From Novosphingobium sp. RL4 (lineage in GTDB: Bacteria > Pseudomonadota > Alphaproteobacteria > Sphingomonadales > Sphingomonadaceae), in the NCBI RefSeq assembly GCF_035658495.1, contig NZ_CP141944.1:1328001-1392000 (forward strand): a DNA stretch of 64,000 bases, in the 5' to 3' direction. The notes beneath the pieces were generated by a model, which saw nothing but the letters and a program-made list of their open reading frames with translations, did not search any database and was not told the DNA's origin. Of the stretch, positions 19,311 to 27,149 are shown one piece after another. Both the position numbers and the translations under genes were made by a program. The number at the start of each line of letters is the position of its first letter. Positions within the stretch are counted from its first letter, which is position 1.

Positions 19311-20156
19311 ATGTCGGTCGCAACCCAGACCAAACTCAACGCGGAAGATATCAAGCCGAAAATCGGCGGTCGTGTGCTCAACACGAAGGAAGAGCTCCTG
19401 TCCGGCGAAATCGCCAGGGAAATCCGGGAGCTGCTGGAAGCGCGCGGCGTGCTGGTGTTCCCGCAGGTCAACTTCACCGATGAAGAGCAGATCGCCTTCA
19501 CGAAGACGCTGGGCACTTTTGCGCCGGAGCGGAAGGGCGGCGAGGAAGTGATCTCGAAGATCACGCTCGACGCCAAGGAAAACCCCATGGCGGCGGAGTA
19601 CCTCAAGGGCTCTCTCTACTGGCACATCGATGGCACCCGCAATGACGTGCCGATCCTGGCCTCGCTGCTTTCCTGCCGCGTGCCGAGCCCGCGCGGCACC
19701 GGCAACACCGGCTTCGCCAATACTTATGCGGCGTTCGAGGGCCTGCCTGCCGAAAAGCAGGAAGAGTACGAGCAGTACCGCGTCGTTCATGGTCCCTGGG
19801 CAAGCCTGTTCTATTACGAGCCGGAACCGAGCCTGGCCAAGCTCCAGGGCTATGCCCAGATCGGCGAACAGGAACTGCCGCTGGTCTGGAAGCACCAGTC
19901 GGGCCGCAAGAGCCTCGTGATCGGCTGCACTTCCGCGCAGGTCGTTGGCAAGTCGGCTCTGGAAAGCGCGATGATCATTCACGGCCTGCGCGAATGGGCG
20001 ACCGGCCCGGAATTCACGTATAGCCACGAATGGGAAGTCGGCGATCTCGTGATGTGGGATAACACCGGCACCATGCACCGGGCAGAAGCCTATGATCCGA
20101 CTTGCGGGCGCATGATGCACCGTACCAAGCTCGAAGGTGAAGAGCCCTTCGAATAA
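19311..20156 (+). CDS. TauD/TfdA-family 2-oxoglutarate-dependent dioxygenase
   Basis: 281 residues. The iron-binding facial triad is visible as His105 and Asp107 in LYWHIDGT and the distal His at about 256 in NTGTMHRAEAYDP. The 2-oxoglutarate-binding arginine follows in CGRMMHRTKL. GNTGFANTYAAFEGLP is a usual family segment. The enzyme would hydroxylate an organic substrate with decarboxylation of 2-oxoglutarate. The TauD, TfdA and related groups cannot be separated by eye, so the substrate is open. It is preceded by a TetR gene and a palindromic operator, and followed by a clear intrinsic terminator, so it appears to be a self-contained regulated unit. Confidence 0.87.
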   Translation: MSVATQTKLNAEDIKPKIGGRVLNTKEELLSGEIAREIRELLEARGVLVFPQVNFTDEEQIAFTKTLGTFAPERKGGEEVISKITLDAKENPMAAEYLKGSLYWHIDGTRNDVPILASLLSCRVPSPRGTGNTGFANTYAAFEGLPAEKQEEYEQYRVVHGPWASLFYYEPEPSLAKLQGYAQIGEQELPLVWKHQSGRKSLVIGCTSAQVVGKSALESAMIIHGLREWATGPEFTYSHEWEVGDLVMWDNTGTMHRAEAYDPTCGRMMHRTKLEGEEPFE

Positions 20157-20187
20157 GCTTTCGCCGAAGCCGATTTCAAATTCCATA

Positions 20188-20220
20188 AGCCCGCCGGATG
20201 TGTCCGGCGGGCTTTCTTCT
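20188..20220 (+). terminator. Intrinsic terminator of the dioxygenase gene
   Basis: Perfect 11-base arms AGCCCGCCGGA (20188-20198) and TCCGGCGGGCT (20203-20213), a TGTG loop, and a pyrimidine-rich TTCTTCT tail. Confidence 0.85.
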
Positions 20221-20270
20221 GCCGGGATCGCCTGCGCCGGATCGTACGGCGGTCGGAGCGCTTGCAGGCA

Positions 20271-20310
20271 AAGAAAAACCCTCCGCCCTTGAAGGCGGAG
20301 GGTTTTTCTT
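20271..20310. terminator. Bidirectional intrinsic terminator between the dioxygenase and icd
   Basis: Perfect 17-base arms (20271-20287 and 20294-20310) with an A-rich start and T-rich end, giving a uridine tract on either strand. It lies 27 bases from the icd stop codon and mainly serves icd on the minus strand. Confidence 0.9.
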
Positions 20311-20337
20311 CGAATTCAGATCCGAAAGGCCGGGCGC

Positions 20338-21561
20338 TTAGGCCCAGTTGGCCATTTCGGCTTCGAGGTTCTGGACGATGGCCTCGAAGAACTGTTCGGT
20401 GGTCATCCAGTTCTGGTCCGGACCGATCAGCAGCGCGAGATCCTTGGTCATCTTGCCGCTTTCGACGGTCTCGATGCAGATACGCTCAAGCGTTTCGGCG
20501 AACTTCACCACTTCCGGCGTTTCGTCGAACTTGCCGCGATAGGCGATGCCGCGGGTCCAGGCGAAGATCGAGGCGATCGGGTTGGTCGAGGTCGCCTTGC
20601 CCTGCTGGTGCTGGCGGTAGTGACGGGTCACGGTGCCGTGGGCGGCTTCCGCTTCCACGGTCTTGCCGTCGGGCGAGAGGAGAACCGAGGTCATCAGGCC
20701 CAGCGAGCCGAAGCCCTGCGCAACGGTGTCCGACTGCACGTCGCCGTCGTAGTTCTTGCAGGCCCAGACGAACTTGCCCGACCACTTGAGCGCCGAGGCG
20801 ACCATGTCGTCGATCAGGCGGTGTTCGTAGACGATGCCGGCATCCTTGAACTTCTCGGCGAAGCCTTCGGTGTCGAACACTTCCTGGAACAGATCCTTGA
20901 AGCGGCCGTCATAGGCCTTGAGGATGGTGTTCTTGGTCGAGAGGTACACCGGCCACTTGAGGTTCAGGCCGTAGTTGAACGAAGCGCGTGCGAAGTCGCG
21001 GATCGATTCGTCGAGGTTGTACATCGCCATGGCGACGCCCGGAGCCGGGAAGTCGAACACGTCGAGGTCGATCTTCTCGCCGCTTTCGCCGTCCCACACC
21101 AGGCGCAGCTTGCCCGGGCCGGGGATCAGGGTGTCGGTGGCCTTGTACTGGTCGCCGAAGGCGTGACGGCCGACGACGATCGGATCGGTCCAGCCCGGAA
21201 CCAGGCGGGGAACGTTCGAGATCACGATCGGCTCGCGGAAGACGACGCCGCCCAGGATGTTGCGGATCGTGCCGTTGGGCGACTTCCACATCTTCTTGAG
21301 GTCGAATTCGGTGACGCGCGCTTCGTCGGGCGTGATGGTCGCGCACTTGACGGCAACGCCGTGTTCCTTGGTGGCGTTGGCGGCGTCGACGGTGATCTGG
21401 TCGTTCGTCTCGTCGCGCTTCTGGACCGAGAGGTCGTAGTACTTGAGATCGATGTCGAGGTAGGGGAGGATCAGTCGTTCACGGATCCATTCCCAGATGA
21501 TCCGCGTCATTTCATCGCCGTCCATCTCGACGATGGGATTCTTGACCTTGATTTTCGCCAT
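20338..21561 (-). CDS. icd: NADP-dependent isocitrate dehydrogenase
   Basis: 407 residues. The TCA-cycle enzyme oxidises isocitrate to 2-oxoglutarate with NADP. N terminus [19 protein letters not shown] and the substrate loop [19 protein letters not shown] near residue 95 are those of the homodimeric eukaryote-like class found in Alphaproteobacteria rather than the E. coli type. Metal-binding aspartates lie in [10 protein letters not shown], and the C-terminal half has [20 protein letters not shown], the NADP-binding segment. The gene stands alone, ends in a strong bidirectional terminator and is divergent from the tRNA-side region. Confidence 0.96.
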
Positions 21562-21810
21562 TCCTGAATACTCCCCAGAGGTGAGAAATTGGGCGTCTCT
21601 TAGGCAGGCGGGGGAGCGCTGGCAAGGCAGGTTGCGGGCCGGCCGGCCGCTTTGCGCGGTGGCGGAGTTGCAACGCGTGCACGGTCGATGTCGAAGGGGA
21701 GTGAAGGATGCGCAATCGATGGCGACTTGCGCTTCTGTCGGCGTGCTTCTTTACGAAGCCGGCTCAACGATGTTCGGGAGGGCCGGCTCAGCTCTGGCCG
21801 GCGGTCCGAA

Positions 21811-21885
21811 TGGTGGGCGTAGCAAGGATTGAACTTGCGACCCCTACGATGTCAACATAGTGCTCTACCACTGAGCTATACGCCC
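21811..21885 (-). tRNA. tRNA-Val (anticodon GAC)
   Basis: The minus strand folds as a complete tRNA: acceptor GGGCGTA/TACGCCC, D arm with AGCTCAGTGGTAGAGC, anticodon stem CTATG/CATAG around TTGACAT (GAC, valine), and the T arm with GGTTCAATCC-like GTTCAATC. The CCA end is encoded (21811-21813). Flanks: 21806-21814 and 21888-21896 are complementary 9-base sequences, so the precursor can extend the acceptor stem. Confidence 0.95.
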
Positions 21886-22021
21886 ACACCATTCGGTCGG
21901 TCCGGAGCGGCGTGGTGTGCCGCTCGGTGGATTGGCCCTCTAACGGTGGTGTCAGAGGTTGGCAACCCGTTTTTTCCAAAAATCTCGAACTGCCTGTGGA
22001 CGGTTCTGTGGATAGCCGGAA

Positions 22022-22396
22022 TCAGAGGCGAGCGTGCTCGGAAAGCCCGAAGACGCGCTGAACTTCCATAACGATATCACGCAGATGGAAGGGCTTCGAG
22101 AGCACTTTGGCGTGCGGTGCCTCGCGGCTGGCGCGCAAGGTGACGGCCGCGAAGCCGGTGATGAACATGACCTTGGTCATCGGTGAAACTTCGGCGCAGC
22201 GCTGGGCAAGCTCGATGCCGTCCATCTCCGGCATGACGATGTCGGAGAGCAGCAGATCGAAATGTTCGCTTTCCAGGTGGGGGAGAGCTTCGGTACCGCG
22301 ATCGACGGCCAGTACGTCGTAGCCGGCGTTTTCCAGCGCACGTGCAAGGTAAGTGCGCATGGCCTGGTCGTCTTCGGCAAGCAGGATGCGGATCAT
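22022..22396 (-). CDS. cpdR: CpdR-type single-domain response regulator
   Basis: 124 residues consisting only of a receiver domain. The phosphoacceptor is Asp52 in LLLSDIVMPEMDG, with acidic residues in LLAEDDQAM, Thr/Ser in MFITGFAAVT and Lys in KVLSKPFHLRD. The sequence RILLAEDDQAMRTYLARALE and the C-terminal KPFHLRDIVMEVQRVF match CpdR, which in Caulobacter controls polar ClpXP-dependent proteolysis. It links the CckA-ChpT phosphorelay to degradation of cell-cycle regulators. The gene is divergent from the N-formylglutamate amidohydrolase gene, a neighbourhood seen in other sphingomonads. Confidence 0.9.
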   Translation of the reverse strand: MIRILLAEDDQAMRTYLARALENAGYDVLAVDRGTEALPHLESEHFDLLLSDIVMPEMDGIELAQRCAEVSPMTKVMFITGFAAVTLRASREAPHAKVLSKPFHLRDIVMEVQRVFGLSEHARL

Positions 22397-22548
22397 CGGG
22401 TTTCTATCCAGATTTGTTCTGACGCATGGGTGCGACGGTCTATGCTTCGAGCCATAGCGCCTATTCCGTTAAAATTCTCGCCCGGTTTCCCCACTGACCG
22501 GGAACGGGACGCTTTGACTTGAGTGGTCGAAAAGGCCAGTTTCCGAAC

Positions 22549-23502
22549 ATGGCAAAACCTTCGGGCGAGAATGATTCGCAACAACGGGTCGGGGGCTGGA
22601 TACCGGGCTTGCCGGAGATTCCGGCCTATGTGATCGATGGATCGGAGCCTTCCGCGATCCCCGTGCTGATCGCGGTTCCTCATGCGGGCCGGGCCTATCC
22701 GGCGTCGCTCCTGCGTGAGATGCGTCAGCCTGAAATTGCCGCAGTCCGGCTTGAAGATCGCTATGTCGATCGAATCGCGAGAAGCGTTGCACGGTCAACG
22801 GGGGCGGGGCTGCTCGTCGCTCAGGCTCCGCGCGCCATGATTGATCTCAACCGGGCGCCAGACGATGTGGATTGGGAAATGGTCCCGCGCGGTTCGCGGC
22901 CGGAAGGTGCGAGCCTCTTGCCGAGTCGCCGGGCGCGCAGCGGGCTGGGACTCGTCCCGCGCCGCCTTCCCGGTCTGGGGGAGATCTGGCGCGGGAGGCT
23001 TGAGCGCGCTGCGCTCGTCGATCGGCTGGAGGGGGTTCACCGGCCTTACCATTCCGCCTTGTCGCAGGCGCTGACGGCTCTGCGCGACCGCTGGGGTGCG
23101 GCCTTGCTGCTCGATTTCCATTCGATGCCGCCGCTGCCCGTGCGGCTGGGAAGCGAGCCGGCCCGTTTCGTTATCGGAGACCGCTTCGGTGCCGCCTGTC
23201 ACGGCAGTCTGGTCGCTTCGGCATTTTCGTGGTTTTCAGCGCAGGGGCAGGAGGCAACTCATAACCGGCCCTATGCGGGCGGATATGTCCTCGACCGTCA
23301 TGGCGCGCCGTCCGAGGGTGTCCATGCGATGCAGATCGAGATCGACCGGAGCAGCTATCTCGATTCGCGGCTGCTCGAGCCGGGTGACGGGATGAATGCG
23401 GTGACCGAACTGCTGGAAGGACTGGTGCGCCGCCTGGCGGCCTCGGTCTGCGATCTGGTGCAGGATTCGGGCGGCAAGGGCTGGGCGCAGGCCGCGGAAT
23501 AG
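22549..23502 (+). CDS. N-formylglutamate amidohydrolase family protein
   Basis: 317 residues from ATG 22549; a TTG at 22519 would add 10. The metal-binding and catalytic elements of the FGase fold are visible: PHAGRAYPASL near residue 44, LEDRYVDRIA near 66, LDFHSMPP near 188 and GVHAMQIEIDRSSYL near 257. Members hydrolyse N-formylglutamate to glutamate and formate in the Hut pathway, but no histidine-degradation genes are nearby. A general amidohydrolase role is therefore possible. The gene is divergent from cpdR. The ribosome site is weak for both candidate starts. Confidence 0.85.
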   Translation: MAKPSGENDSQQRVGGWIPGLPEIPAYVIDGSEPSAIPVLIAVPHAGRAYPASLLREMRQPEIAAVRLEDRYVDRIARSVARSTGAGLLVAQAPRAMIDLNRAPDDVDWEMVPRGSRPEGASLLPSRRARSGLGLVPRRLPGLGEIWRGRLERAALVDRLEGVHRPYHSALSQALTALRDRWGAALLLDFHSMPPLPVRLGSEPARFVIGDRFGAACHGSLVASAFSWFSAQGQEATHNRPYAGGYVLDRHGAPSEGVHAMQIEIDRSSYLDSRLLEPGDGMNAVTELLEGLVRRLAASVCDLVQDSGGKGWAQAAE

Positions 23503-23576
23503 CGCAGGTTTTGCGGCAGGTCGCCCGCAGCTAAGTTCGATTGTCGGATAAAGTCCGGCGCTTTGCTCAGGACATT

Positions 23577-23677
23577 AAAAAACCACCTCGCGCAATGCGC
23601 GAGGTGGCCAAGGTTCAGGGAGGAGGTGCACGATGTGCACCAACCCGACCGGGCCATGAGGGTAGCGCCGATCAGGT
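23577..23677 (-). ncRNA. Candidate small RNA with a CCUCCUCCC anti-Shine-Dalgarno motif
   Basis: On the minus strand a promoter (23684-23711) precedes a roughly 100-nt transcript. It contains hairpin GGTGCAC-N3-GTGCACC (23625-23641), immediately followed by CCTCCTCCC (23618-23626) in a largely unpaired stretch. The transcript ends in a classical intrinsic terminator: perfect 11-base arms 23583-23593 and 23597-23607, then six uridines (23577-23582). No protein gene uses this terminator. A CCUCCUCCC motif between hairpins is a hallmark of the stress-induced CcsR or cuckoo RNAs of Rhodobacterales, so this may be a sphingomonad analogue. Confidence 0.65.
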
Positions 23678-23683
23678 AGCCCT

Positions 23684-23711
23684 AACATAGCAAGCCTGAT
23701 CGCACATTCAA
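23684..23711 (-). promoter_or_regulatory. Candidate promoter of the small RNA
   Basis: On the minus strand TTGAAT (23706-23711) and TATGTT (23684-23689) are 16 bases apart, close to the sigma-70 consensus. They direct transcription toward the terminator at 23577-23607. Confidence 0.45.
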
Positions 23712-23773
23712 CCCCTAGAATGGGGCATGCAACATACCTTTTGCAAGTGCGCGTTGGGATGGTGCTGCATAAT

Positions 23774-23812
23774 GGGGCGGGGGTGTGACAAAATTGTCAT
23801 AAACCCCGCCCC
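23774..23812. terminator. Long stem-loop downstream of sapC
   Basis: Two stacked stems, GGGGCGGGG/CCCCGCCCC (23774-23782 and 23804-23812) and TGACAA/TTGTCA (23786-23791 and 23794-23799), with a small internal loop. It begins 23 bases beyond the sapC stop on the minus strand. No uridine tract follows. Confidence 0.5.
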
Positions 23813-23834
23813 GAAAGTTCACGAAATCAGAGTG

Positions 23835-24605
23835 TCAGGCGGCGGGGAGGATCTGCGGACCCTTGCCCTGGGAAACCTGACGACCGAAAATGTCCCGCAC
23901 CAGATCGAGCGAGAAGAGGTGTGCGTAAATCAGCGGCAGCATGCCGTTCTGGTTCCACTGGCGCAGCACGTCGCCGCGCATTTCACGCAGCTTGTTTTCG
24001 TCGACCATCTGGAAGCCGCGATAGGTGAAGGGCTGGCCGGTGCCGATGTCGATGTTCAGCTCGCCGTCCATCAGCAGGTTGTGCTTCGTCAGCTCCGCCA
24101 TGAAATTGGCGGTCTTGGTGCCGGCGATCTCGAAGTTCTCGCAGAACTTGAGCATGTTCTTGGTCGCTTCGGTCGGCTCGGCCTCGTTGAAGAGGGCTTC
24201 ACCGTCCTCGCCTTCACCGACGAGATCGCTGGTGGGGTCGACGCAGAGCGAGAGTTCTTCGGCATCCGGGCGCAGACGGGCCAGCATGAACGGATAGCGG
24301 CGTGCGTAAGCGGGGATGTAGACCGGCGTATTCACGGTGCCGTCTTCGTCGACGTAGACGTTCACGCCTTCGTTCATGCCCATCAGGATCAGCGGCACCG
24401 GATTTTCGCCAGCGGTGAAGATGATCGGGAAGTGGCGCTGCGCCTGCGGGAATTCCTCGACGGTCAGCGGGATCGAGTTCACGCCGACCAGCCAGGTGGC
24501 CTTGTCGGTGGAACGCGTCTTCCAGGTGGCGTGCTGCTGCGAGTTGAGCGGCACGAGGTCCTTGTAGAACAGGGGCAGGGCAGGATTCTGCGGCGCGGTG
24601 GCCAT
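23835..24605 (-). CDS. sapC: SapC family protein
   Basis: 256 residues from ATG 24605. The start LPLFYKDLVPLNSQQHATWK, the segment EFPQAQRHFPIIFTAGENPV and the C-terminal GFQMVDENKLREM are characteristic of SapC. This family of unknown biochemistry was first described next to surface-layer and TonB-receptor genes and is abundant in sphingomonads and Caulobacter. There is no signal peptide. The ATG at 24605 aligns with the conserved start; longer frames are not supported. Here it has no TonB receptor or tryptophan halogenase-like neighbour, which is the more usual context. A strong stem-loop follows the stop. Confidence 0.85.
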   Translation of the reverse strand: MATAPQNPALPLFYKDLVPLNSQQHATWKTRSTDKATWLVGVNSIPLTVEEFPQAQRHFPIIFTAGENPVPLILMGMNEGVNVYVDEDGTVNTPVYIPAYARRYPFMLARLRPDAEELSLCVDPTSDLVGEGEDGEALFNEAEPTEATKNMLKFCENFEIAGTKTANFMAELTKHNLLMDGELNIDIGTGQPFTYRGFQMVDENKLREMRGDVLRQWNQNGMLPLIYAHLFSLDLVRDIFGRQVSQGKGPQILPAA

Positions 24606-24779
24606 TGCGTTACTCTCCGCAAGACTGGGAAATTTCGAAGGCGACGCTTTAGGGGCTGCATGGGGCGGGCGCAAGCGCGCAGCCCGCCGAAACGGGGATA
24701 TTGGGCGAGTCGTGGGTCCTCGCCCGATTGATCCCGGTAAGTGCCACTGCCGAAGCGCAGGCGCGCTTGTCGTTCGGGG

Positions 24780-26201
24780 TCAGATCAGCTTGCCGGGATT
24801 GAGGATTCCGGCGGGATCAAGGGCATGCTTCACCGCGCGCAGCATGGACAGCGCGGCAGGGTCTCCGAGGCGGGCCAGTTCGTCGCGCTTGAGCTGGCCG
24901 ATGCCGTGCTCGGCCGAGATCGAGCCGCCCCATTCGGTGACGAGATCATGGATGTAGCGGCTGATCGTCTTGCCCTGGTCGGCTTGCCAGGCGGGGCCGT
25001 CGGTCACATCCGGCGCGATCACATGGTAATGGACGTTGCCATCGCCAAGGTGGCCGAAAGCGATGGCTTCCGTGCCGGGCCACCTGGCCTCGATCATCGG
25101 GGCGGTGGTTTCCACGAAGTCCGGCATTTTCTCGACGGGAACGGAGATATCGTGCTGCACCGCCGGACCGCGAGCGCGCTCGGCCGGGGAAATCGATTCG
25201 CGCAGCAGCCACATGGCCTCGGCCTGGGACTCGTTGCTGGACATGGCTGCGTCTTCCAGAAGCTCGGCTTCGAATGCGTCCGCCATCATCGATTCGCAGC
25301 GATCGCGCAGCGTCGCGGCAGCGTTGCGATCCGCCACGACCTCGATCAGGACATGCCATGCGTGGCGATCCGAAAGCGGTACGCGGCTGTCGGGCAGATA
25401 ATCGAGCACGGCGTCGAGGCAGGCTTGCGGCAGAACCTCGAAGCCTTCCAGTGCCTCTCCCGCAGAGCGCTCGCAGTGGAGCAGGAGCTTGCGCGCCGCA
25501 CCGAGCGAGGGCACGCCGGCCCAGATCACGACGCGTTCGGCAATGGCGGGCAGCAGGCGCAGCGTTGCCGCGGTCACGATGCCCATCGTTCCTTCGGAGC
25601 CGATCAGCAATTGCTTGAGATCGAACCCGCGATTGTCCTTCTTGAGCGGCGTAAGCATCGAGAAGACCTGGCCGTCGGCCAGTACGGCTTCGAGGCCCAG
25701 CACAAGCGCGCGCATCGATCCGTGCCGCAGAACCTGCGTGCCGCCGGCGTTCGTGGAAATCAGTCCGCCCACCGTGGCCGAGCCCTTGCCGCCGAGCGAG
25801 AGGGGGAAGCGCAGGTCCCGCGCTTCGGCCGCTTCATGAAGGGTCTGGAGCACGACACCGGCTTCGCACGTGGCCTGCCGCGCTTCGACGTCCAGCGTGC
25901 GAATCGCATTCATCCGGCGCAGCGAAAGAAGCAGGGCAGTTCCGCTGCCGTCAGGCGTTGCCCCTCCGGACATGCCGCTGTTGCCGCCTTGCGGAACGAT
26001 CGGAACGCCGAACCTGGCGCAGATATTCACAAGCTCGGCCAGTTCCGGGACGTTTGCGGGAGAGGCCATTGCCACGGCGCTCCCGGTATATCGTCCGCGC
26101 CAGTCGGTGAGCCAGGGGGCAAGCAGGTCCGCGTCAGTGGTCAGGCCGCGAGGGCCAAGCAGGGCGGTGGCTTCGGCAAGAAAGCTGTCGGTATTCGTCA
26201 T
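24780..26201 (-). CDS. FAD-binding oxidoreductase of the GlcD/D-lactate dehydrogenase type
   Basis: 473 residues. The N-terminal FAD-binding PCMH domain has VPIVPQGGNSGMSGGATPDG near 64 and NAGGTQVLRHGSM near 140. The C-terminal oxidase domain has IAFGHLGDGNVHYHVI near 384, with metal-ligand histidines, and the closing SAEHGIGQLKRDEL and DPAGILNPGK signatures. This pattern covers D-lactate, glycolate and D-2-hydroxyglutarate dehydrogenases, which are hard to separate by eye. Absence of GlcE/GlcF partners argues against glycolate oxidase. The product probably feeds electrons to an electron-transfer flavoprotein or quinone. Confidence 0.87.
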   Translation of the reverse strand: MTNTDSFLAEATALLGPRGLTTDADLLAPWLTDWRGRYTGSAVAMASPANVPELAELVNICARFGVPIVPQGGNSGMSGGATPDGSGTALLLSLRRMNAIRTLDVEARQATCEAGVVLQTLHEAAEARDLRFPLSLGGKGSATVGGLISTNAGGTQVLRHGSMRALVLGLEAVLADGQVFSMLTPLKKDNRGFDLKQLLIGSEGTMGIVTAATLRLLPAIAERVVIWAGVPSLGAARKLLLHCERSAGEALEGFEVLPQACLDAVLDYLPDSRVPLSDRHAWHVLIEVVADRNAAATLRDRCESMMADAFEAELLEDAAMSSNESQAEAMWLLRESISPAERARGPAVQHDISVPVEKMPDFVETTAPMIEARWPGTEAIAFGHLGDGNVHYHVIAPDVTDGPAWQADQGKTISRYIHDLVTEWGGSISAEHGIGQLKRDELARLGDPAALSMLRAVKHALDPAGILNPGKLI

Positions 26202-26346
26202 GAAGGCGATATGGCACAGGCTTCACCGGGTTTCATCCGTGGTCTTGCCTCGCTATCGACATGGAACGTGCATCGTATCGGGTTAAGCGCTGGTTCAAGC
26301 TCTTGCTCTAAGGCGACAGCACTGTGCCCGGGGACCAACTCTTTCG

Positions 26347-26958
26347 ATGAATCTCGCCTCCGTCCTGCTCTATCCGTTTGCGCTGCTGCTACCCGTGGTG
26401 GGCGCGACGGAGGCTGGCCGCACGGCCCGAAGCGAGCGGGCGGAGACCGGGACCGTCTCCGTGGAACCGGAAGCCGGCAGTTATGCGTGGCCGGATGAGC
26501 TGCCCGATTCGCCGGGCGGCTGGCCGTTTTCCGCATCGGCGTTCGATCATGTCGAGCCGGGCGATGCCTGGCAGGTGCGAATCGAGCAGCGCATGACGAT
26601 TCGCGTCACCCCGCGCGCGCAGATGCCCAGCCCGCCAGACATGTTCGTGGGCATGCCCGGGCGGGATGACGACGGCCCGCGCTTTTCCGAACGCAAGATC
26701 GGCAAATGCCTGCCGATGTCCGGCATCGCCGGGGTGCAGCCCGACGGGCAGAGCCGGCTCCTGCTGTTCATGCGCGATCGGCGGGTGATCGGTGCCGAAC
26801 TGGAAAGGGGTTGCCGGGCAGGGGCTTTCTATTCCGGATTCCTGCTGTCACGGACATCCGATGGCCAGCTCTGCGTCGATCGCGACGAATTGCTTTCCCG
26901 CAGCGGCACCACCTGCAAGTTGACGCGCATTCGCCAACTGGTTGCCGTGGGTCGTTGA
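26347..26958 (+). CDS. Secreted protein of unknown function
   Basis: 203 residues. A likely signal peptide is visible at 1-20 (MNLASVLLYPFALLLPVVGA). The mature part holds a positively charged linker, then VRIEQRMTIRVTPRAQM and ERKIGKCLPMSGIAGVQPDG near 125, MRDRRVIGAELERGC and DGQLCVDRDELLSRSGTTC. Four cysteines in the second half could form two disulfides in the periplasm. I do not recognise the family. The gene is divergent from the FAD oxidoreductase gene, 145 bases away. The frame is open, GC-typical and starts with an ATG, but no ribosome site is clear. Confidence 0.6.
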   Translation: MNLASVLLYPFALLLPVVGATEAGRTARSERAETGTVSVEPEAGSYAWPDELPDSPGGWPFSASAFDHVEPGDAWQVRIEQRMTIRVTPRAQMPSPPDMFVGMPGRDDDGPRFSERKIGKCLPMSGIAGVQPDGQSRLLLFMRDRRVIGAELERGCRAGAFYSGFLLSRTSDGQLCVDRDELLSRSGTTCKLTRIRQLVAVGR

Positions 26959-27149
26959 GCGATTGGCCGCGGTTGGCGCGCGAATCCTGATTTGGAGCAT
27001 TGTCGGCCTGGTCGAATCGCGGCCTTTGCGCGGATTTCCTTGACGTTGGGGGCATTTCCCGCATAGGGCCCGGCCAGATATACGATCGGCTTCGTGCTGA
27101 CCGATTGATTCGGTCGTTGCCGTAGCGCCGCGAATATCCTTAGCGTCCT

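Follow-up and report, generated by a model that had tools for sequence, protein, structure and literature searches.

On the minus strand of the window, by which we mean the whole stretch of 64,000 nucleotides analysed here, we identified a conserved element that is very probably a real sRNA gene. It is situated between sapC and a convergent gene for N-formylglutamate amidohydrolase (FGase), which ends at 23502. On comparative grounds, the predicted sRNA is a diverged positional ortholog, in the Sphingomonadaceae, of the alpha-r8 sRNA SuhB/MmgR/SisA (Rfam family RF00519). Taken as a whole, the data are best explained by a trans-acting sRNA of about 100 nt that would form its own transcription unit, be driven by an RpoH promoter and act through Shine-Dalgarno pairing, an explanation that we consider probable. 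The RpoH-type promoter is the new point about the sphingomonad alpha-r8 RNA. The features are given below by their positions in the window.

23577..23711, minus strand: predicted sRNA gene with promoter, two hairpins, CCTCCTCCC linker and intrinsic terminator, read from the sequence
23577..23677, minus strand: predicted sRNA of about 100 nt, with a presumed start about 7 nt past the -10 element
23706-23711, minus strand: hexamer TTGAAT, with a spacer of 16 to TATGTT
23684-23689, minus strand: hexamer TATGTT, located in the sequence
23707..23712, minus strand: -35 element GTTGAA (RpoH consensus CTTGAA)
23685..23691, minus strand: -10 element GCTATGT (RpoH consensus CCTATNT), 15 nt past the -35 element
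23644..23676, minus strand: hairpin 1, 9 pairs, C-rich loop CCCUCAUGG (CCCCCUUUCG-like loop in other clades)
23625..23641, minus strand: hairpin 2, GGUGCACAUCGUGCACC, 7 pairs
23618-23626, minus strand: linker 9-mer CCTCCTCCC, the first two C of which sit in the hairpin-2 stem
23608..23624, minus strand: single-stranded core UCCUCCCUGAACCUUGG with anti-Shine-Dalgarno CCUCC
23577..23609, minus strand: intrinsic terminator, 13-bp stem and U-run
22519..23502, plus strand: FGase gene, convergent neighbour (PF05013, E 4.8e-60)
23835..24674, minus strand: SapC-family gene, upstream on the same strand (PF07277, E 2.2e-70), with its stop at 23835

The initial annotation had described a promoter pair, two hairpins, an anti-Shine-Dalgarno linker and a terminator that belongs to no flanking gene, and we located all of these at 23577-23711, with CCUCC inside the single-stranded core. 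The terminator lacks a T-run on the plus strand, which indicates that it is not the terminator of FGase; SapC has already stopped at 23835. Its 13-pair stem was the longest among the 8 terminator-like sites in 20000-27000, where shuffles gave 5.3. The 108-nt RNA folded at -58.1 kcal/mol (z = -6.7), a value that none of 200 shuffles equalled. The 9-mer CCTCCTCCC was found once in the window against 0.80 copies expected, and 51 of 100 shuffles contained at least one, which indicates that the motif alone is not significant and is not the evidence; the element stands above chance because of its conservation and covariation. A sigma-70 consensus scan of 20000-27000 found no promoter, and an Rfam scan of the window at the gathering cut-off called a tRNA and no sRNA.

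We found DNA matches to the element in 155 of 199 Sphingomonadaceae genomes (E up to 0.01), many of them spanning only the core and terminator, which supports conservation in sphingomonads. We then aligned 50 homologs, comprising 30 loci from the DNA search, the window's own included, and 20 picked from its list. A 29-pair structure accounted for 92.4% of cells as paired, compared with 38-48% when slid, and two-sided changes occurred at 22 of the 29 pairs, compared with 15.1 +/- 1.5 in shuffles and 9-12 when slid. The covariation score was 0.346, versus 0.176 in shuffles. Pairs with two-sided changes were present in all three hairpins, including every pair of hairpin 1 (9/9, with 81.8% of cells paired) and of hairpin 2 (7/7), and 6 of 13 in the terminator, where 99.8% of cells were paired. 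Relatives thus carry the compensatory base changes on which the initial annotation had staked its proposal. RNAalifold, unaided, recovered hairpin 2 and the terminator; hairpin 1 was missing from its prediction and was drawn from the sequences. A covariance search across the order, as had been suggested, matched 154 of 196 genomes with model R1, which we built from the 50 homologs; the window's copy, itself in the training set, scored 111.9 bits (G000:C1:1351577-1351680, G000 being the window's genome).

The string CUCCCUGAACCUUG was invariant across the 50 aligned homologs. Further loci (L066-L185, from at least 120 genome stretches) were retrieved via the exact core CTCCCTGAACCTTGGCCNCC, and the homolog counts for promoter, synteny, loop and 10-mer reported here (160, 177, 179 or 181) are restricted to loci that carry CTCCCTGAACCTTG(A/G)CC as their core. 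Because these loci were chosen by their core, its invariance is partly by construction, except in the 50 BLAST-chosen loci, all of which had it. The four counts of distinct loci differ because of different de-duplication and the later addition of loci. Among the matches listed for the exact core (80 of at least 120 genome stretches), the names point to Sphingomonadales in every case except one contig labelled as Actinobacteria and two MAGs of Alphaproteobacteria. Two main forms of the hairpin-1 loop occur, one CCCCUCAUGG-like and the other CCCCCUUUCG-like; both are C-rich, and the loop possibly provides a second anti-Shine-Dalgarno contact.

The best cmscan match of the element was to RF00519 (suhB/MmgR), which it matched over the full length at 30.5 bits against a cut-off of 41 (E 1.2e-4 for 301 bases). 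None of 20 other Sphingomonadaceae homologs given to Rfam reached the RF00519 gathering cut-off. Searching the class with R1 gave matches in 55 of 385 genomes, 4 of them Sphingomonadaceae. Outside that family (26 loci in all), RF00519 scored over its cut-off at the same place in 18 of the 20 matches tested, as it did in 17 of 20 matched loci from sister families. R1 matches elsewhere are therefore mostly RF00519, which indicates that the two models form a continuum. The element also has the alpha-r8 plan of a weak hairpin, a single-stranded stretch and then a Rho-independent terminator. Of 181 members, 10 carry the 10-mer of the alpha-r8 single-stranded stretch, UUUCCUCCCU, unaltered, and 160 match it at 8 or more of its 10 letters; the window's version, CCUCCUCCCU, matches at 8. 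We regard a score below the cut-off as a matter of detection threshold rather than a biological feature, and we therefore file the element as a diverged ortholog and not as a plain RF00519 member.

The available part of PMC12559287 reports alpha-r8 in all Alphaproteobacteria except Rickettsiales and an FGase gene adjoining most single-copy alpha-r8 genes. We found FGase downstream of the element in 166 of 179 distinct sphingomonad loci; in the undeduplicated set it was present in 190 of 203 loci and was convergent and downstream in all 190. The 13 loci in which FGase was not found comprise 6 with less than 600 nt of downstream sequence and 7 with more than 1.3 kb; these 7 are real exceptions and probably represent a rearranged locus. 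SapC precedes the element on the same strand in 164 of the 179 distinct loci. Beyond the family, FGase was convergent downstream in 19 of 26 weak-match loci of the class (strands taken from coordinates) and in 15 of 20 sister-family loci, all 15 of which are RF00519 over the cut-off. Because the FGase locus is common to alpha-r8 elsewhere, the element qualifies as the positional ortholog of MmgR/SisA, and common architecture together with common locus supports its assignment to alpha-r8. The proposal of a separate, undescribed family accordingly gives way, on the full-length RF00519 match and the FGase synteny, to a diverged branch of the known alpha-r8 family.

Several loci depart from this arrangement. 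The FGase-less loci with more than 1.3 kb of downstream sequence are L079, L114, L131, L140, L157, L160 and L175, and the first four, which are the four named among the matches listed, are Sphingobium. Loci L303, L304 and L305 are diverged homologs; in L304 and L305, from genus g78, the element lies between SapC and FGase with the core CUCCCUGAACUCCGG or CUCCCUGACUUCCGG, and an R1 match was missing in 9 of the 13 listed genomes of that genus. The window's genome also encodes four canonical RF00519 SuhB copies that score over the cut-off, two of them in tandem.

C1:2966384-2966822: canonical SuhB copies (L039, L040)
C1:596452-596529: canonical SuhB copy (L038)
C2:731876-731952: canonical SuhB copy (L041)

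These four copies have cores of the form CCUCUCCC-A(4-5)-CUUU, and their 3-kb loci contain no FGase.

We also investigated the promoter. According to the available part of PMC4843759, RpoH1 of S. meliloti has the consensus CTTGAA-N15-16-CCTATAT, and rpoH1 is the only rpoH in Sphingomonadales. Across 160 distinct homolog upstreams, the -35 element showed C in 82%, TTG in 99%, A in 71% and A in 85%, and this sixth position was C in only 6%, in a fit that favoured A. The -10 element showed CC in 74% and 72%, which lie outside the fit, followed by T in 86%, A in 98%, T in 74%, any base, and T in 95%. The hexamers were spaced by 16-17 in 153 of the 160. The fit was made to TTGAA and TAT, which leaves only the flanking C positions unbiased. 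When upstreams were scored against CTTGAA-N15/16-CCTATNT (12 scored positions, spacer N15-17), 142 of 177 reached at least 10/12 and 31 reached 12/12, compared with 7 of 885 shuffled upstreams. The threshold of 10/12 was reached in 3 of 22 alpha-r8 loci outside Sphingomonadaceae. By eye, the window's own promoter has 10 of the 12 positions; for the four canonical SuhB genes found elsewhere in this genome the scores are 7, 8, 8 and 9.

As a reference we used heat-shock genes. Of 30 HSP20 loci from the same family, 23 had the motif (9-12/12) at one and the same distance before the gene, 22 of them with exact CTTGAA. In 29 genomes, the exact RpoH pattern occurred at 12 sites, which belong to seven HSP20 genes, dnaK, rpoH, one MamQ/LemA-like gene and, at two sites, the sphingomonad sRNA. 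Six of these HSP20 genes coincide with PF00011 places and the seventh (L405) was read from the sequence, dnaK and rpoH were identified by NCBIfam over the cut-off, and the remaining gene, whose MamQ match is below its cut-off, we presume to be LemA-like. A reversed control pattern gave 6 sites, which indicates that the number of sites is weak and that the identity of the genes bears the argument. The exact site precedes the sRNA in only 2 of the 29 genomes, and a search of the window's genome for the exact pattern returned none. HSP90 served poorly for this purpose (7 of 21 genomes). The groES promoters (L245-L265) follow CTTGAC-N15/16-(C/A)CCATNT at 11-12/12 in 18 of 21 loci, unlike those of HSP20 and the sRNA; 13 of the 21 nevertheless reach 10/12 against the RpoH consensus, which indicates that a score of 10 alone is not proof of RpoH and weakens the promoter argument somewhat. 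In sister families, several alpha-r8 promoters (L409-L428) read by eye as CTTGAT or CTTGAA with CCTAAATAT, which suggests that RpoH-like control may predate Sphingomonadaceae. We conclude that control of the sphingomonad alpha-r8 ortholog has probably switched to the heat-shock sigma factor.

In alphaproteobacteria the RpoH and housekeeping consensus sequences are close and differ at few positions, the S. meliloti sigma-70 consensus being CTTGAC-N17-CTATAT. The same alpha-r8 ortholog could thus be transcribed by the housekeeping sigma factor, with CTTGAA/CCTATNT as a sphingomonad flavour of sigma-70 and with a response to growth or nutrients like that of MmgR and SisA. The groES scores are compatible with this alternative, as are the CTTGAC-type sequences of several alpha-r8 promoters outside the family, and tRNA upstreams provided only 4 usable control promoters out of 99. 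SisA, moreover, is nearly constitutive according to the available part of PMC12559287. Against it stand the preference for A over C at the sixth -35 position, tempered by the fit, the unfitted CC before TAT, and the identities of the genes at the 12 exact sites, and we consider housekeeping control unlikely.

Two further alternatives concern the nature of the element itself. It might be no sRNA gene at all and instead belong to sapC as a 3' UTR or terminator element, or represent a leader or a small ORF, as could be suggested by an AUG in the hairpin-1 loop and by SapC, which ends on the same strand about 160 nt before the element. However, a conserved promoter separates SapC from the element, and the stems change by compensation. 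Of 181 homologs, 85 lack the loop AUG, and among the 96 with it, 66 reach the end of the U-run without a stop, which led us to reject a coding role. This alternative is therefore highly improbable. CcsR RNAs bear a C/U-rich motif, and the initial annotation saw in the element a possible counterpart of CcsR/cuckoo RNAs in a separate sRNA family. On this alternative the C/U-rich motif would be convergent. The linker CCUCCUCCC recalls these RNAs, as does the RpoH-type promoter, which the CcsR operon also has in the form of an RpoHI/RpoHII promoter (figure legend in PMC10253847). The FGase synteny and the full-length RF00519 match argue against such an origin, the window holds one motif copy, and the five nearby proteins scanned, with FGase and SapC as neighbours, include no DUF1127. 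Already disfavoured on these grounds, a CcsR/cuckoo-type family is scarcely credible.

The preferred reading, an alpha-r8 ortholog under RpoH, predicts both when the RNA is made and what it does. It most likely is a sigma-32-driven, Hfq-assisted sRNA that would block ribosome binding on selected mRNAs. Because the promoter is of the RpoH type, the sRNA should be made when RpoH (sigma-32) is active, as in heat, with misfolded protein, or under oxidative or membrane stress. The single-stranded CCUCCCUGAACCUUGG is then predicted to bind, probably on Hfq, to Shine-Dalgarno regions that extend upstream to read UUCAGGGAG, and this pairing would block ribosome binding and lower the translation and stability of those mRNAs. 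A plausible target class is that of TonB-dependent receptors, whose mRNAs SisA targets via its 10-mer with the aid of Hfq (PMC12559287, available part).

We searched 21 genomes for TTCAGGGAG-N4/11-ATG and found 72 sites, against 7 when the pattern was reversed; the 72 include at least 4 that are simply the sRNA gene in reverse orientation. The sites were as frequent in sister families (30 in 8 genomes) as in the genus (42 in 13 genomes), and the pattern reflects Shine-Dalgarno sequences in general. The genes at 34 of the 72 sites were inspected. A TonB-receptor-like gene in the window's genome and two congeners (G725 and G727; loci L365, L372 and L378) carries UUCAGGGAG (TTCAGGGAG) by the start codon, although the three differ in their DNA farther upstream; a Plug domain scored only below the Pfam cut-off (90 residues scanned). 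This candidate fits the precedent of SisA but emerged from a search for the motif itself, which means that it is not a test. Other recurrent genes encode a protein of 131-139 aa (in the same three genomes), TauE-like (2) and EF-hand-like (2) proteins and, by reading alone, enolase (2 sites).

A more far-reaching proposal, which we put forward tentatively and at somewhat below even chances, is that the FGase-linked alpha-r8 RNA is a core RNA of the RpoH regulon. Upon heat or oxidative shock, its near-invariant CUCCCUGAACCUUGG would silence mRNAs with UUCAGGGAG-extended sites, among them those of TonB receptors, and the canonical SuhB paralogs would keep an older, growth-related role. Should RpoH drive the sRNA, a conserved RNA arm would be added to the heat-shock regulon of a large environmental family, and the case would show a known sRNA gene that has come under different control with its locus and pairing core retained. 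The sphingomonad ortholog is invisible to Rfam and hence to standard annotation. A literature search, conducted mostly outside subscription papers, found no RpoH-driven or FGase-linked sphingomonad sRNA; the alpha-r8 phylogeny of Lagares 2016 and the MmgR paper may already list these loci.

We compared the predicted RNA with known systems. CcsR1-4 of Rhodobacter (cuckoo RNAs) resemble it in a C/U-rich motif and an RpoH-type promoter, the latter likeness going unnamed in the initial annotation, but CcsR1-4 are co-transcribed in an operon with a DUF1127 gene at the CIN1 locus (PMC10253847, available part), whereas the element is a single RNA between SapC and FGase. Two candidates besides CcsR/cuckoo were rejected on score: the model of SorX, also from Rhodobacter, gave 12.1 bits against a cut-off of 46.6, and that of alpha-r14/NfeR1 (RF02344) gave 22.2 bits against 58.8. 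The latter shares the literal anti-Shine-Dalgarno motif CCUCCUCCC, which alpha-r14 carries three times, once in the unpaired part of each of its three hairpins (PMC10746234, available part), whereas the element has one copy, in the linker. SuhB of Sphingopyxis granuli TFA, a 61-nt RNA that represses thnR with Hfq (PMC6563040, available part), shares the name and the order, and its Hfq-aided repression at a 5' UTR matches the mechanism modelled here; compared by description rather than by sequence, it appears to be a canonical copy (CCUCUCCCA-rich cores, no FGase) and not the FGase-linked one. The closest relatives are the alpha-r8 RNAs, MmgR of S. meliloti and SisA-D of Caulobacter, from which the sphingomonad RNA differs in several respects: the UUU before CCUCCCU is exact in only the 10 of 181 homologs noted above, GAACCUUGGCC stands where other alpha-r8 RNAs by eye mostly show AACUUGGGCC, and the promoter is of the RpoH type, whereas those of SisA-D are described in the available part of PMC12559287 as unrelated, with no common motif. 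It shares with them the hairpin, the CCUCCCU anti-Shine-Dalgarno core, the terminator and the FGase neighbour, and sister families of the same order have RF00519 at the same place.
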